Source: Lachnospiraceae bacterium (GTDB lineage: Bacteria > Bacillota > Clostridia > Lachnospirales > Lachnospiraceae). From it: a stretch of 64,000 nucleotides of DNA. The position numbers were made by a program, and so were the translations under genes. Below are positions 13,865 through 42,088 of the stretch, piece by piece. The stretch is taken from positions 38,573-102,572 of the forward strand of contig JAGAYR010000021.1 of assembly GCA_017940415.1 (NCBI GenBank). The letters are read 5' to 3'. The notes below the pieces were generated by a model that ran no database searches, was not told the DNA's origin, and worked only from the letters and a program-made list of their open reading frames with translations. Positions within the stretch are counted from its first letter, which is position 1. Each line of letters opens with the position of its first letter.

Positions 13865-14605
13865 CTATATCCCGGCTCCGGACGCCAGTGTCATGCAGTA
13901 CACGCTCTCGGCTCCCGCCTCAAGAAGTACTTTGGCACAGGCATCAGTTGTGGCACCTGTTGTATATATATCATCTATCAATAATATACGCTTTGATTTT
14001 ACTACACTTTGCCCGCTCTTGAAAGCATTTTTGAGATTTTTTTGACGCTCCGCGGGGCTCAAAAGCTTCATGGGAGCGGTATTTCTGACCCTTTTCAAAG
14101 CTCCCGGATAAAAGGGTATATTTGTCAGTTTTGAGACCTCGCCTGCGTAGTCTTCAGCCTGATTGTAGCCTCTTTTCAGCATTTTCTTTTTGGAGAGAGG
14201 GACGCAGACTATGGCGTCAGGCTTTGTCATGGCCAGGTAATCCCCGAGTATCTTAACCGAGCTTTCGGCGAAAAAAGCGGCATATTCACGCCGACCCAGG
14301 TATTTGAACCTGTAGACCGGATTGCTTATGCAGGGATATTCGAACACACTCCTGCATCTTACAAAAGAATGCTCGTTTCGCTTGCAGTCACCGCATATTC
14401 CCTCGCCGAAATTAAGCTTTTTCCCGCATTTTTCACACCATGGATATCTGAGCGCCTTTAAGGATCTCAAGCAGTCAAGGCATATCTTTTCTCCGTAAGG
14501 CGCGGCATTATCACACACGGGACATCTTGCGGGATAAACAAGGTCTACCGCCTTAGCGGCCGCACGCTTCAATGAGTCTTTCAGCAAAAGAAGTGTATCT
14601 GTCAT
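13865..14605 (-). CDS. comF: ComF family phosphoribosyltransferase-like protein
   Basis: The protein has 246 residues. The N-terminal part has a zinc-binding 'CPVCDNAAPYGEKICLDC' and 'CEKCGKKL...GICGDC' pattern. The C-terminal part carries the PRPP-binding motif 'ILLIDDIYTTGAT' of the type I phosphoribosyltransferase fold. ComFC proteins are needed for natural transformation in Bacillus and relatives, working with the ComFA helicase, which is absent here. The frame overlaps the 3' end of recD2 by 53 nt. That is unusually long, and no good internal start was seen before the zinc motif. Confidence 0.88.
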   Translation of the reverse strand: MTDTLLLLKDSLKRAAAKAVDLVYPARCPVCDNAAPYGEKICLDCLRSLKALRYPWCEKCGKKLNFGEGICGDCKRNEHSFVRCRSVFEYPCISNPVYRFKYLGRREYAAFFAESSVKILGDYLAMTKPDAIVCVPLSKKKMLKRGYNQAEDYAGEVSKLTNIPFYPGALKRVRNTAPMKLLSPAERQKNLKNAFKSGQSVVKSKRILLIDDIYTTGATTDACAKVLLEAGAESVYCMTLASGAGI

Positions 14606-16790
14606 TCGAACCTCTCGTATCGGTCATACGGTGAATGGTCTGTGAACTTCCGAGAAGCACCACGCAGGACTTGGCCCTGGTGATACCGGTATAAAGCAGG
14701 TTCCTGTAAACCAGCGGCATGGGCGGATCGAGAACGGGAATGATGACCGCGGGATATTCGCTTCCCTGGGACTTATGGATGGTCATGGCATATGAAAGGT
14801 CCAGTTCATCCAGTTCGGAAAAAGAATACTTCGCTACTCTTCCGTCATCGAAAAGCACCGTCATTGTTCTGGCAGCTTCATCTATCCTTCTGATGCGGCC
14901 CAGGTCTCCGTTAAAAACTCCCGTTCCGGCCCTCTGAAGAGACTCAAGCCTTTCGTCCGTAGTCCACTCAAGTTTGTAATCGTTCTTGGTCTGCATTACC
15001 TTGTCGCCCTCGCGGTAAAGAGTATCTCCGTAGATATACTCTGCTTTGGTCTGAGCGGGAGGGTTCAGGATCTGCTGCAGGAATCTGTTTAATTCATAAG
15101 CGCCCAGCGCACCCTTTTTCATGGGGGTGAGCACCTGGATATCAAATTTACTGCAATGAATATATGCAGGCAGTTTATCCGAGATCATCCATCCGATGGT
15201 CTGTTTGATCACATTTGAATCATCTCTTTCCAGGAAAATAAAATCCCTTATGGAAGATGAAAGTTCTATATGTTCACCCTTGTCGATCTTGTGGGCGTTG
15301 ATGACTATATTACTGGTCTCGTCCTGTCTGAAGATTTTCTCAAGCTTTACCATGGGGAAAGCAGGACAGGAACAAATATCATTTAAGACGCATCCTGGAC
15401 CGACGCTGGGAAGCTGTGAGGCATCACCCACAAGTATCAGTCTCGAGGATATGGGAACCGCCGATAAAAGGGCTTTGAACAGCATTATGTCAACCATTGA
15501 CAATTCGTCAATTATGATAACATCCGCTTCCAGAGGGTCTTCCGCGTTCTTTTGGAAGATTACGGACTGCCCCGACTCATCAGCCATGGAAGTCACCCCG
15601 AGGAGTCTGTGAATGGTGGTAGCCTCGTATCCGGTAGCCTCCGTCATCCTCTTGGCAGCTCGTCCCGTGGGTGCCGCAAGAAGGATCTCCAGCCCCTGGT
15701 TCATGAAGTAGCCGATGATCATGTTGATGGTGGTGGTCTTACCTGTTCCGGGACCTCCGGTCAGAATAAAGAGTCCGTTTTTGATGCACTCTTTTACCGC
15801 GTTTACCTGGAGAGGGTCCGTCTGCATGGCATTGCCCTCTGCAATCTTAACGATATCCCTTTCGATCTTCTCATCAAGTCCGGGGAGATCTTTCATCATG
15901 GGGATATTCTTCTCAGCAAGCATCCTGGCACAGGAAAGCTCGGCGAAATAAAAAGCGGGAAGATAGATCTTATCCTTATCGGTCTTGAGTTTTCCGGCGT
16001 GGATAAGCTCTTCCAGTGCGGATTCCACACTTCCGTGTTCGGGCCCCAGAAGCTGCTTTGTGTAGTCTATAAGTATTTCTTTGGGAAGATAGCAATGGCC
16101 TTCCGAAGCGCTTTCCGTCAAAGCATAGGTTATTCCCGCCATGCATCTTTCGGCGCTTCCCGGATCCATTCCCAGTTTGGATGCGATATCATCGGCAGTC
16201 TTAAATCCGATGCCTCTCACATCCTCCGCAAGTTTATAAGGGTTGGTCTTGATCACGGTAATGTAATCGGGACCGTAGTTGTCATATATCTTAACCGCCA
16301 TGCTCTGGGTGATACCCAGACCGCTCATGGCTACCATGGCATCGCGGAGGTCTCTTTTTTCCTCCATTGCGACCGCTATCTCCATGGCTTTTCTCTTACT
16401 GATGCCTTTGATCTCCGCAAGGCGCTCGGGTTCCTCTTCTATGATCCTAAAGGTGTCGTCCCCGAATTTGCTTACGATCTTGGAAGCCAGCTTTTCGCCC
16501 ACGCCGGATACAGCGCCCGATGCAAGATATCTCTCCATTGCCTGAGAATCCGCGGGAGGAATAATCTTGTAGGACTCGGCCTTGAACTGAATTCCGAATT
16601 TGGGATGGTCCACGTACGAGCCGGTAACTTCGATGGTGTCGCCTTTTGATACGTCGGGCATCTTACCCACTACCGTCTCATCGGATCCGTCGCAAATAAG
16701 AGAGAGGGCTTTATAGCCGTTCTCATGTTTCTCAAAAAAGACTTTATCGACATAGCCTTTTAAAACATTTTCTTCCTGCGAAAAATCCAA
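14553..16790 (-). CDS. recD2: RecD2 ATP-dependent 5'-3' DNA helicase
   Basis: The 745 residues are typical of RecD2, the RecBC-independent form. An N-terminal OB-like region is followed by helix-hairpin-helix units ('SGVGEKLASKIV', 'VRGIGFKTADDIA') to about residue 210. The SF1B motor has Walker A 'GGPGTGKT' at 345-352, 'VIIIDELSMVD' (motif II), 'LVGDASQLPSVGPG' (motif III) and the C-terminal 'AMTIHKSQGSEYPAVIIP' (motifs V/VI). RecD2 acts in genome maintenance at stalled forks. It is the first gene of a short operon with comF and yvyF. Confidence 0.95.
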   Translation of the reverse strand: MDFSQEENVLKGYVDKVFFEKHENGYKALSLICDGSDETVVGKMPDVSKGDTIEVTGSYVDHPKFGIQFKAESYKIIPPADSQAMERYLASGAVSGVGEKLASKIVSKFGDDTFRIIEEEPERLAEIKGISKRKAMEIAVAMEEKRDLRDAMVAMSGLGITQSMAVKIYDNYGPDYITVIKTNPYKLAEDVRGIGFKTADDIASKLGMDPGSAERCMAGITYALTESASEGHCYLPKEILIDYTKQLLGPEHGSVESALEELIHAGKLKTDKDKIYLPAFYFAELSCARMLAEKNIPMMKDLPGLDEKIERDIVKIAEGNAMQTDPLQVNAVKECIKNGLFILTGGPGTGKTTTINMIIGYFMNQGLEILLAAPTGRAAKRMTEATGYEATTIHRLLGVTSMADESGQSVIFQKNAEDPLEADVIIIDELSMVDIMLFKALLSAVPISSRLILVGDASQLPSVGPGCVLNDICSCPAFPMVKLEKIFRQDETSNIVINAHKIDKGEHIELSSSIRDFIFLERDDSNVIKQTIGWMISDKLPAYIHCSKFDIQVLTPMKKGALGAYELNRFLQQILNPPAQTKAEYIYGDTLYREGDKVMQTKNDYKLEWTTDERLESLQRAGTGVFNGDLGRIRRIDEAARTMTVLFDDGRVAKYSFSELDELDLSYAMTIHKSQGSEYPAVIIPVLDPPMPLVYRNLLYTGITRAKSCVVLLGSSQTIHRMTDTRGSNDRYTSFAERLIEACGR

Positions 16791-16906
16791 ACTAAATACT
16801 CCTCATGCAAAGTCTGAAACTGTTCTCCGAATCTTTCAGTCCGAAGCAGAAGGCTTCAAACCATATGCGCGGAATGCGCGAAGTAAGACAAGTTCACTAC
16901 CTGTCT

Positions 16907-16935
16907 AGGATATCACTAAGAGGGCAATAAGACAA
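16907..16935 (-). promoter_or_regulatory. putative promoter of recD2
   Basis: On the minus strand TTGTCT (16935-16930) and TATCCT (16912-16907) are 17 nt apart, about 115 nt upstream of the recD2 ATG. The sequence between the promoter and the gene includes a GCGC..GCGC palindrome. This is a consensus match only. Confidence 0.35.
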
Positions 16936-17023
16936 ATTAAGGTTATATTAAACCTACTTTAATTCCCTCTTTCTCCCCCGCATGAGAATGGCCCCCTCAA
17001 AAGACGGTCTTTTACCTCGGGCA

Positions 17024-17461
17024 GGCTATAATTTCGCTCATTTATGAGCTTTTTATAGCCCCAAACCTCCTCAGAAACCGGTTCTTCACTCAAAAAGGCT
17101 ATAATTTTGCCGTTTTTCGGCACTTTTTTAGCCCCTGACTTCCTCAGAAGCTTCTTTCCACCTCAAAAAGGCTATAATTTTGCCGTTTTTCGCGAGTTTT
17201 TTAGCCCCTGACCACATCTAAATCCATGTTTTCCCTAGAAAAGGCTATAATTTTGGCTTTTATCTCGATTTTTTTAGCCCCCAGCTTCCTCAGAAGCTAA
17301 TTTACACACCAAAAAGGCTATAATTTCCGCGTTTTTCTTGATTTTTTTAGCCCCACCACTTCAAGCCACTGCCATATCCCACAGAAAAGGCTAATAAAGT
17401 GGAAGTTTCTGAGGATTTATTAGCCCGACAAGTCGCCACGGCCGAAAAGATGTGTAAATAG
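17024..17461. repeat. tandem array of six 73-bp hairpin units (array 1)
   Basis: Units begin at 17024, 17097, 17170, 17243, 17316 and 17389, exactly 73 bp apart. Each is a 37-nt hairpin-forming segment (GGCTATAATTT...TTTTTTAGCC) followed by a 36-nt less conserved segment ending in an A run. Stems differ but pair: unit 1 GGCTATAA/TTATAGCC, unit 6 GGCTAATAAA/TTTATTAGCC, unit 2 GGCTA/TAGCC with inner TGCCG/CGGCA. Units 2 and 4 carry TTCCTCAGAAG between hairpins; unit 6 has TTCTGAGGA in its loop. On the minus strand each stem is followed by TTTT, like a weak terminator. This array fills most of the 724-bp gap between the flagellar operon and recD2; no gene is present. Confidence 0.9.
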
Positions 17462-17464
17462 TAA

Positions 17465-17496
17465 TACCCCCGGCGGCGCGAAGCTCGTCGGGGGTA
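17465..17496 (-). terminator. GC-rich hairpin after the flagellar operon
   Basis: An 11-bp stem with one mismatch (17465-17475 with 17486-17496, core CCCCCG/CGGGGG) lies about 20 nt beyond the stop of the flgJ-like gene on the minus strand. The following T run is short, so termination is likely but not certain. Confidence 0.6.
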
Positions 17497-17514
17497 CCAC
17501 ATATATGGAATAGT

Positions 17515-17925
17515 TTAGTTGTTTTTAGGTTTGATGTAGGCCACCTGATCTGCGGGAATTGAATTGGGATCAAGGCCATAGTTTCGGCGAAGCTGCTCGT
17601 AAAGCTGCTGAGCAAGTCCGAGGCCGTCTTTTTCGGTGGACTGCTTCGCAAGTTCCTGGATAGTCTCGCCTTTGAAGAAATCTACAAGATTCTCCGTAGC
17701 TGCATCCTTGGAATCATCTCCGTTTCGGATAACAGTCTTATCCATATGCTTGAAAACCTGCTCGAGAAGATAACTCTCAAATTGTTTGCATACGGAAAGA
17801 AGTTCATCATCGCTGCTCGCATTTTCCGCTTTGTTTGAAAGTGAATTTGCAAGCTCAGTTGCCTGAGTCTGTCCGGTGACGGAAGTATAGTAATCTGTAA
17901 GTGAAGAAATATTGGAAATATCCAT
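17515..17925 (-). CDS. flgJ: FlgJ-like flagellar rod-binding protein (no muramidase domain)
   Basis: This 136-residue protein corresponds to the N-terminal rod-binding domain of FlgJ only. 'VCKQFESYLLEQVFKHMDKTV' and 'VDFFKGETIQELAKQS' match the FlgJ-N pattern (family FEalllkqmlk...). The peptidoglycan hydrolase domain of enterobacterial FlgJ is absent, as is usual for Firmicutes. It presumably acts as a scaffold for rod assembly. It follows flgG by 3 nt in the flagellar operon, which supports the assignment. Confidence 0.8.
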   Translation of the reverse strand: MDISNISSLTDYYTSVTGQTQATELANSLSNKAENASSDDELLSVCKQFESYLLEQVFKHMDKTVIRNGDDSKDAATENLVDFFKGETIQELAKQSTEKDGLGLAQQLYEQLRRNYGLDPNSIPADQVAYIKPKNN

Positions 17926-38125: not shown

Positions 38126-38529
38126 GGGCTATAATATCCCGGTTTTTCCTCAGAATTATTGCCCTTATGGCTTCAATATGGGTTTTTTCGGTGCCTCGGG
38201 GCTATAAGACATCTGGATTTCTGAGGAGATTATTGCCCCGGCAGCACTTTTCGAACGCCTTACAGACTCAAAGGGCTATAATTCACCAAGTTTTTCCTCA
38301 GAATTATTGCCCTTATGTCTTCAACTTGGCGTTTTTTCATACTCAGAGCTGTAATTCTCTTGGCTTCTGAGGTTTTTACAGCCACGAGTGCTCTATGAAA
38401 ACGCCTTTTAGTTCCAGATGACTGTAATCATCTTGATTTCTGAGGATTTTACAGCCCCGAAAGCTCATTCCGAACACCTTTTGCCTAAAATCGGCTGTAA
38501 TTCTCCCGGTTTCTGAGGAATTTACAGTC
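38126..38529. repeat. tandem array of six ~73-bp hairpin units (array 2)
   Basis: Hairpin starts are at 38126, 38199, 38273, 38346, 38419 and 38492, spaced 73, 74, 73, 73 and 73 bp. Units 1-3 are GGGCTATAAT...ATTATTGCCC (one mismatch in the stem). Units 4-6 switch to CTGTAA...TTACAG, a compensatory A-T to G-C change. Loops carry TTCTGAGGA (units 2, 4, 5, 6) or its inverse complement TCCTCAGAA (units 1, 3). This is the same period, copy number and motif as array 1. It fills nearly all of the 484-bp gap between the btuC-like and btuF-like genes; no gene is present there. Confidence 0.9.
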
Positions 38530-41781: not shown

Positions 41782-41867
41782 AAAGGGCGCACACAAAAGG
41801 CAGGGCCATAACCCTGCTAATGTGATACGATCAATTACTCGTGATCCGGATGCTGTTCCTGTATCGT

Positions 41868-42062
41868 TATACATGGCAGGTTTCCCGGCTCATACCTCCC
41901 GGCGGAAAAGAAAACATTCCGCCATCGCTTCTTTCTGCCTTCCCGGTTTCCCAGTGACTTTTGCGAAAGTAAGCTCGGTATCTACGGTGACGAGTTCGCA
42001 CAGGCCTTAAACCTGTTTCCCTTTTAACGTCGGAGGCAAATAACGCCTCTTCGGCACCACAT
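41868..42062 (-). ncRNA. cobalamin riboswitch aptamer
   Basis: Read on the minus strand the region shows the ordered conserved blocks of the adenosylcobalamin riboswitch. These are a 5' GGTGCCGAAGAGGC start, AAAAGGGAAACAGGT (near 42026), CACTGGGAAACCGGGAAGG (near 41956-41938), and the B12 box AGCCGGGAAACCTGCC at 41890-41875. A terminator follows 95 nt downstream. High cobalamin should stop transcription of the leftward operon at 41.75 kb. The 460-bp gap 41719-42178 is thereby explained. Confidence 0.95.
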
Positions 42063-42088
42063 ACCCTTCTTTGTTAAATTGCCCTACG

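Follow-up and report, generated by a model that had tools for sequence, protein, structure and literature searches.

Tandem arrays of 73-bp palindromic units in Clostridia, their helical phasing and their association with a nuclease-like protein family

The window considered here is a stretch of 64,000 nucleotides from a Lachnospiraceae bacterium (assembly GCA_017940415.1, contig JAGAYR010000021.1), and coordinates without another label refer to it. Two host genes on the minus strand frame the locus of interest. The upstream gene (17515..17925) is presumably FlgJ-like and flagellar, while the downstream gene (14553..16790) is taken to encode a RecD2-like helicase, the name also used in the initial annotation, which had correctly placed an array of hairpin units between flagellar and recD2 genes. 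This array, referred to as array 1 (17024..17425, no strand assigned), consists of six 37-bp inverted repeats with a 73-bp period and 36-bp linkers. The palindromes occupy 17024..17060 (unit 1, arms GGCTATAA/TTATAGCC), 17097..17133, 17170..17206, 17243..17279, 17316..17352 (units 2 to 5) and 17389..17425 (unit 6, arms GGCTAATAA/TTATTAGCC), none with an assigned strand.

The regularity that the initial annotation reported for this array was recovered. The six GGCTA starts (17024, 17097, 17170, 17243, 17316 and 17389) are all exact, the exact 73-bp period was returned by Tandem Repeats Finder (period 73, score 290), and a repeat search with a 146-nt reference gave spacings of 73, 73 and 73. Units 1 and 6 do contain the stems given for them, and unit 2 has its inner TGCCG/CGGCA. 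Other statements had to be narrowed. The range 17024..17461 holds up to the end of the last palindrome at 17425, and positions 17426-17461 are flank. The claim that the stems stay paired was too strong: the outer pairs are complete in unit 6 (9/9), but not in unit 1 (8/9) or in units 2-5 (7/9). A minus-strand TTTT, announced for every stem, follows five of the six palindromes, whereas the last one (17060-17024) is followed by TGCC. As a check against chance, a two-unit pattern gave 14 matches in the window's genome and 136 in its relative G001 (both strands summed), and the same pattern reversed gave 0 in each.

Array 2 (38127..38529, no strand assigned), which is kin to array 1, is flanked by genes for an ABC permease and a substrate-binding protein and comprises six units spaced by 73, 74, 73, 73 and 73 bp. 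It is located within a likely cobalamin-uptake operon, and some of its units carry GTAA-type arms. A cobalamin riboswitch (75 bits, 41858-42076, minus strand) stands beside the uptake genes. It is the only RNA that Rfam recognises in the window, the region 16700-17700 having produced one chance match, and an Rfam RNA was therefore rejected as the identity of array 1.

The 73-bp family contains 77 non-redundant arrays with 394 units, a count that omits repeated arrays and two pattern matches outside Clostridia (L129, L138). The array detector gave no array at L005, L091, L097, L104, L105, L110 and L111; variant arrays are visible by eye at L097, L104 and L105, and L005 holds a single unit. The geometry of the units is strict. 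Among 317 spacings, 299 are 73 or 74 bp (72 bp in 17, 73 in 263, 74 in 36 and 75 in one), and the palindrome measures 37 bp in 351 of the 394 units (36 bp in 5, 38 bp in 38). In the 44 adjacent unit pairs with less than 50% identity of loop plus linker, 29 hold 73 bp and 15 hold 72 or 74 bp.

These arrays are dispersed within genomes and spread over a restricted set of them. Related palindromes lie on contigs C3 and C6 of the window's genome (G000; 2.69 Mb, 84% complete), as blastn showed, and a covariance model made from 51 unit pairs (R1) revealed further arrays. Contig C6 starts within an array (L006, 1-116), so assemblies may tend to break at such arrays, and counts from MAGs may be too low. 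Across the genus, R1 found arrays in five of 31 genomes (G000, G001, G015, G017 and G026), while the other 26 gave 0 matches at E 0.01 with at most 124 candidates scored per genome. In a sample of the family Lachnospiraceae, at least 9 of 397 genomes matched at E 0.001 with nine candidates scored per genome (G000, G103, G113, G119, G131, G168, G281, G386 and G406); the matches in G113 and G131 are weak, and the array detector found no array in either. A three-palindrome pattern run over 84,980 species genomes returned 49 stretches, 47 of them labelled Lachnospiraceae, Pseudobutyrivibrio, Eubacterium or Clostridiales and many of rumen origin; the other two, from unrelated high-GC records, are taken for chance. 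An origin from phages or plasmids was rejected, the array having no DNA match in either. Arrays on viral contigs were likewise dismissed: a two-palindrome pattern gave six stretches with one match each, taken as chance. The open-access literature yielded no description of such arrays or of the nuclease-like protein discussed below, and the 73-bp palindrome arrays are apparently a kind of repeat not described before.

Conservation within the unit is concentrated in the arms. The outer GGCT/AGCC and position 8 are almost invariant, while positions 5-7 differ by lineage (ATA, AAT, AAG, GTA, AAC, ACC) and are usually the same in both arms. When units were chosen on the GGCT/AGCC core alone, the arms agreed in 228 of 286; 1000 shuffles within loci gave a mean of 202 and a maximum of 215, and shuffling over all loci gave a mean of 55. 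The 58 units with mismatched arms include some arrays in which every unit is mismatched. Covariation is found only at pairs 5-33, 6-32 and 7-31, the other strong scores being equal columns of adjacent units. A pseudoknot between spacer TTCTGAGGA and loop TCCTCAGAA, spotted by eye, was set aside, as covariation is confined to the arms. The motif GCAACTGAGGAGG recurs in linkers and the complementary CCTCAGAAAC in loops (L039 2450-2778, L047, L041), and no covariation was seen between the two. Six arrays (L033, L034, L035, L037, L038 and L039) are mixed, with an AATAA-type block and an ATAA-type block joined by a single switch. The related arrays of G406 carry other arms, GGCGAACA, as identified by eye. 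The initial annotation had stated that it would be refuted by a lack of covariation, by a lack of other copies or by identity with a known IS or satellite. Covariation and other copies were both found and the repeats did not prove to be a known IS or satellite, and its interpretation is partly supported.

The arrays are intergenic and have mixed surroundings. Simple ORF picking found no ORF of at least 70 aa inside any of the 77 arrays. Fifty of them lie between co-directional genes, 11 between convergent and 7 between divergent genes, and 9 are at contig edges; the neighbouring proteins of 30 arrays, scanned with Pfam, belong to mixed host genes. At the locus of array 1, relatives allow a direct comparison. 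The genes flgJ and recD2 are adjacent at 21 of 29 FlgJ loci, and the spacer between them measures 479, 499, 728 and 1234 bp in four carriers. Among 17 relatives that lack an array it ranges from 9 to 406 bp, with five of them at about 9 bp. With a narrower detector setting, arrays were present at the flgJ locus of those four carriers and at none of the 25 other loci. The locus of array 1 recurs as L033, L042 and L082, where the arms differ. Array DNA was thus added between flgJ and recD2 in the carrier clade.

The base composition of the units follows the turns of the double helix. The A+T profile, averaged over 350 units from 72 arrays, has maxima near positions 9, 19, 29, 40, 50, 61 and 71 of the 73-bp unit, in steps of about 10.4 bp. 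With the arms masked, the seventh harmonic (10.43 bp) has an amplitude of 0.084, compared with 0.0044 (sd 0.0021, maximum 0.011) in 500 within-unit shuffles. No other harmonic exceeded it in any of 1000 bootstraps or in any of the seven genome groups, where its phase ranged from 1.57 to 1.99 radians. Linkers alone, pooled over all groups, place the seventh harmonic on top in 998 of 1000 bootstraps; within single genome groups the seventh leads in three, the sixth in two and the eighth in one, and in the smallest group the leader is harmonic 27. Beyond the array ends a single A+T peak occurs at 12-13 bp and the signal then fades. This A+T phasing is helical phasing of the DNA. Under a wedge model, the predicted bend over the 72 arrays is 54 degrees per 73 bp, compared with 27 for shuffles and 24 for flanks, and exceeds that of the array's own shuffles in 71 of 72 cases and that of its own flank in 64 of 66. 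For array 1 the same model predicts a bend of 88 degrees per 73 bp, where shuffles give 25 (sd 5).

The Pfam scan of the 30 array neighbours left over three unnamed proteins of 270-281 aa, each encoded between two arrays (L094, L157, L103). A fourth relative of 314 aa is located 8 bp from an array in P6A3 (L073), and the four share 46-58% identity. A further neighbour of 270 aa (P0004, at L135) was set aside as membrane-like and unrelated to this family. The gene is also present in 7 of the 47 Clostridia stretches that had been found via the array pattern alone (seven records: L118, L165, L123, L153, L136, L132 and L157). Within the genus, homologues of at least 66% identity occur only in G001, G015 and G017, all of them array carriers, while 13 further genomes have distant homologues of at most 43% identity. 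The copy in G017 is split across contig ends. Searches of the window's own genome and of the carrier G026 (80% complete) did not find the family. Because these assemblies are incomplete and a 770-aa neighbour of the G001 gene is missing from both as well, this absence is uninformative, and for the window itself the link between gene and array is indirect.

Starting from the protein leads to the same association. Tandem palindromes, each with their own arms, were detected at 58 of 90 homologue loci (up to L297), and 32 showed none. The 58 include two weak members, L214 (low complexity) and L290 (one spacing). By level, with a threshold of 5 hits, arrays accompany 15 of 20 genus loci, 20 of 30 family loci and 12 of 20 class-level loci, the last including a few genes already counted (L298 and L240, for example, are one gene). 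Control loci passed through the same detector and threshold gave one of 25 for FlgJ (L205, 5 hits) and none of 12 for Y1 transposases. The detector's period range was 45-139 for genus and control loci and 40-124 for the 90-locus count, and 40 added loci were hand-picked among the family matches listed. The array lies upstream of the gene in 50 of the 58 cases, including 10 with arrays on both sides, and downstream only in 8.

Periods differ between subfamilies of the protein, and they do so in whole helical turns. In the 58 loci they fall at 52-54 bp (10 loci), 62-64 (20), 72-75 (21), 77 (1), 85-86 (2) and 94 (1), with single loci at 103, 105 and 108, and no locus has a period of 55-61 or 65-71 bp. 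The locus at 77 bp (L222) lies off the whole-turn rule. A common divisor of 10.5 bp fits best (R=0.846, n=58). With periods clustered by kinship at 50% protein identity (70 loci), 38 clusters give R=0.80 and a Rayleigh p of about 3e-11, while clustering at 40% identity leaves seven clusters with R=0.72 and p 0.03. In the window's protein subfamily, each of the 11 loci with an array has a period of 72-74 bp. Locus-averaged A+T spectra of the 5-turn (10 loci), 6-turn (20) and 7-turn (22) groups have their maxima at 5, 6 and 7 cycles per unit, respectively, whereas in single loci the expected harmonic is on top in only 16 of 55, and the two 8-turn loci peak at 9. Three carriers of the 73-bp family (G001, G015, G017) also encode a paralogue of about 36% identity, whose array in G001 and G015 (L225, L226) has a 62-bp period and GCATC/GATGC arms. 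Counted on one strand, the pattern of this 62-bp array occurs 14 times in G001, 20 in G015, 8 in G017 and 4 in G026, in several places, and neither in G000 nor in G002; the reversed pattern gave 0. A second family is thus dispersed in the same manner, and two protein-array pairs coexist in one genome.

The protein family is widespread. It is present in at least 125 of 397 Lachnospiraceae-family genomes (E 1e-5) and in 36 of 391 class-sampled genomes from several families. Viral contigs gave no relative, plasmids gave partial matches to the nuclease domain only (8 records), and in phage records three short unannotated faecal contigs matched, one of them with 90% coverage and 32% identity. No Pfam match below 0.02, no NCBIfam match below 0.005 and no solved relative below 0.02 was obtained. 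The last ~115 residues match the end of PDC-S68 in PADLOC (E 9e-29), and also the C-terminal ends of plasmid-borne AAA ATPases and helicases. Across 11 diverse members the motifs RVRSKSE, PDFT, WEH and GMMD are conserved, and E165, D195, E210 and H211 are invariant. An AlphaFold2 model built from seven sequences has a mean pLDDT of 61, with values below 50 over residues 180-251. Its confident part comprises a helix (4-31), two strands (37-43 and 46-52) and a second helix (65-100). A PD-(D/E)XK core is arranged as alpha-beta-beta-beta-alpha-beta with acidic residues; the low-confidence part of the model (helix, four strands, helix, strand) follows the order of such a core, with the acidic residues fitting. 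From motifs and model, the C-terminus of this ~270-aa protein appears to resemble a PD-(D/E)XK nuclease. Cutting is doubtful, because members of the family do not share the lysine of the canonical (D/E)XK motif.

Taken together, these observations are probably best explained by phased arrays of half-sites with a cognate nuclease-like protein that controls its own gene and spreads the arrays. Each unit would be a site in double-stranded DNA, made of two inverted half-sites of about 8 bp (here GGCT-NNN-A) placed about 21 bp apart. Units recurring every seven helical turns would present these sites on one face of a DNA that is curved by in-phase A/T runs. Fixed spacing combined with free loop and linker, whole-turn periods, phased A/T and predicted curvature point to proteins lined up next to each other along a single face of the DNA duplex, which they would bend or wrap. 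Arms that vary between lineages and yet match within a unit, together with a gene and an array that travel as a pair, suggest that the nuclease-like protein is the partner; its predicted N-terminus, a coiled coil with a beta-sheet, may be the DNA-binding part. The mostly upstream position of the gene-adjacent array suggests that this array controls the gene. Dispersed arrays may be copies made in the past, either by the protein itself or through repair of cuts that it introduced, much as REP elements rely on RAYT. Of the roles proposed in the initial annotation, a phased protein-binding array is therefore favoured, on account of the 73-74 bp period, the phased A+T, the predicted curvature and the relatives with whole-turn periods.

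Some of the same features could also be expected if a host wrapping protein, such as gyrase or a nucleoid protein, were the main user of the arrays, which would then absorb supercoils or organise the chromosome while the nuclease-like protein only spread or controlled them. Phased A/T, predicted curvature and the location of all 77 arrays outside predicted ORFs agree with this reading, and so does PMC6379681, which describes a 130-bp gyrase motif in E. coli with GC flanks periodic at 10.75 bp, as well as gyrase cleavage of intergenic BIME-2 palindromes. The centre of the gyrase motif, however, is non-periodic, whereas array phasing extends over the whole unit. Moreover, arms and periods shift with the protein subfamily, and most gyrase-bearing relatives have no arrays (in the genus, R1 detects arrays in 5 of 31 genomes), so that a host wrapping protein is an unlikely main user. 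Defence or addiction is a distinctly remote alternative, in which the protein would attack incoming DNA and chromosomal arrays would mark self or restrain it: the C-terminal resemblance to the PADLOC candidate PDC-S68 and to plasmid AAA ATPases and helicases speaks for it, but only the nuclease-like domain is held in common, and the role needs no dispersed, curved and phased arrays.

The arrays might instead act as RNA, as a series of hairpins in mRNA or in a non-coding RNA, with a part in stabilisation, termination or protein binding. Covariation at 5-33, 6-32 and 7-31 would fit (78 cells changed on both sides against 44 after shuffling), as would strand asymmetries in the 50 co-directional arrays, where G-U exceeds A-C on the sense strand by 61 to 24 (19 arrays vs 8) and sense-strand loops are A-rich in 37 of 48 decided arrays, with the opposite in 11. 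Ordinary mutation bias can also produce such asymmetry, although an RNA role may still lie behind it. A constant loop (19) and linker (36), helical phasing and whole-turn periods would not be expected of an RNA; covariation occurs nowhere beyond the arms, and of the 68 arrays that could be placed, 18 have neighbouring genes that converge or diverge. The structured non-coding RNA proposed in the initial annotation keeps its covariation in the arms alone and matches no known RNA at the Rfam gathering score. Its tandem terminators are not supported: T-richness past the palindrome favours the sense strand in 25 co-directional arrays and the antisense strand in 22, which is no excess, and many arrays have no T run. 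Intrinsic terminators were rejected on this count, yet array 1 does have a sense-strand TTTT at five of six units. Altogether, action as RNA is considered very unlikely. A degenerate CRISPR-like array of 37-bp repeats and 36-bp spacers, suggested by sizes similar to those of CRISPR repeats and spacers, is hardly credible: the centre of the supposed repeat is as variable as the supposed spacer and the arms alone are kept, neighbouring linkers are often near-identical, related arrays differ in period and are dispersed to many places, and no cas gene was found among the 30 array neighbours scanned with Pfam.

Among known systems, the centromere sopC of the F plasmid consists of protein-bound tandem repeats of 43 bp that each contain an inverted repeat. 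The arrays share with it tandem inverted-repeat units whose length is near a whole number of turns, but they are chromosomal and can be numerous in one genome, and their candidate protein has another fold. PDC-S68 and the PD-(D/E)XK domains of AAA ATPases and helicases are related to the protein over the C-terminal ~115 residues; the PADLOC models, however, have at least 1,200 aa, the N-terminal half of the nuclease-like protein differs, and no reported arrays were found for them. With the E. coli BIME-2 gyrase sites, as PMC6379681 presents them, the arrays have in common intergenic tandem palindromes and phased A/T suited to wrapping; they are distinguished by another unit length and other arms, by uninterrupted phasing and by a linked nuclease-like gene.

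REP and BIME elements resemble the arrays in layout. As described in PMC8266576, they are short intergenic palindromes in many dispersed copies, often tandem and with lineage-specific matched arms, and in a REP/RAYT REPtron a single gene is flanked by its own palindromes. The nuclease-like gene, too, is flanked by palindromes that are dispersed elsewhere, and the many dispersed arrays, with the gene elsewhere or sometimes not found, resemble REP/RAYT by analogy. Arrays and gene are thus like REPtrons in arrangement, but membership fails on enzyme, foot motif and geometry. The protein is PD-(D/E)XK-like, whereas RAYT is a HUH Y1 transposase, and a link to such transposases is not supported: PF01797 occurs in two of the five carriers (G001 and G015, not G000, G017 or G026) and in 7 of 26 array-free genomes. 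No conserved REP-type GTAG foot was seen beside the palindromes, and over 350 units no flanking column next to the arms exceeds 0.25 bit. REP and iREP alternate, whereas the units here are direct repeats in one orientation with a whole-turn period.

In its widest form the proposal concerns elements found throughout Clostridia, in which a protein of PD-(D/E)XK fold would co-evolve with half-site arrays of 5, 6, 7 or 8 and more turns, bind them as a filament along one face of curved DNA and spread them, with several independent pairs per genome; this generalisation seems to us evenly poised between right and wrong. If true, it would represent a second, unrelated solution to the role of REP/RAYT, in which a nuclease fold takes the place of the HUH transposase, and a rare example from nature of repeat spacing quantised by the DNA helix. 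Protein-site pairs of varied arms and spacing would make recognition and cooperative binding testable by swapping arms or spacing. Finally, a large share of the unexplained intergenic DNA in rumen and gut Clostridia would receive a name.
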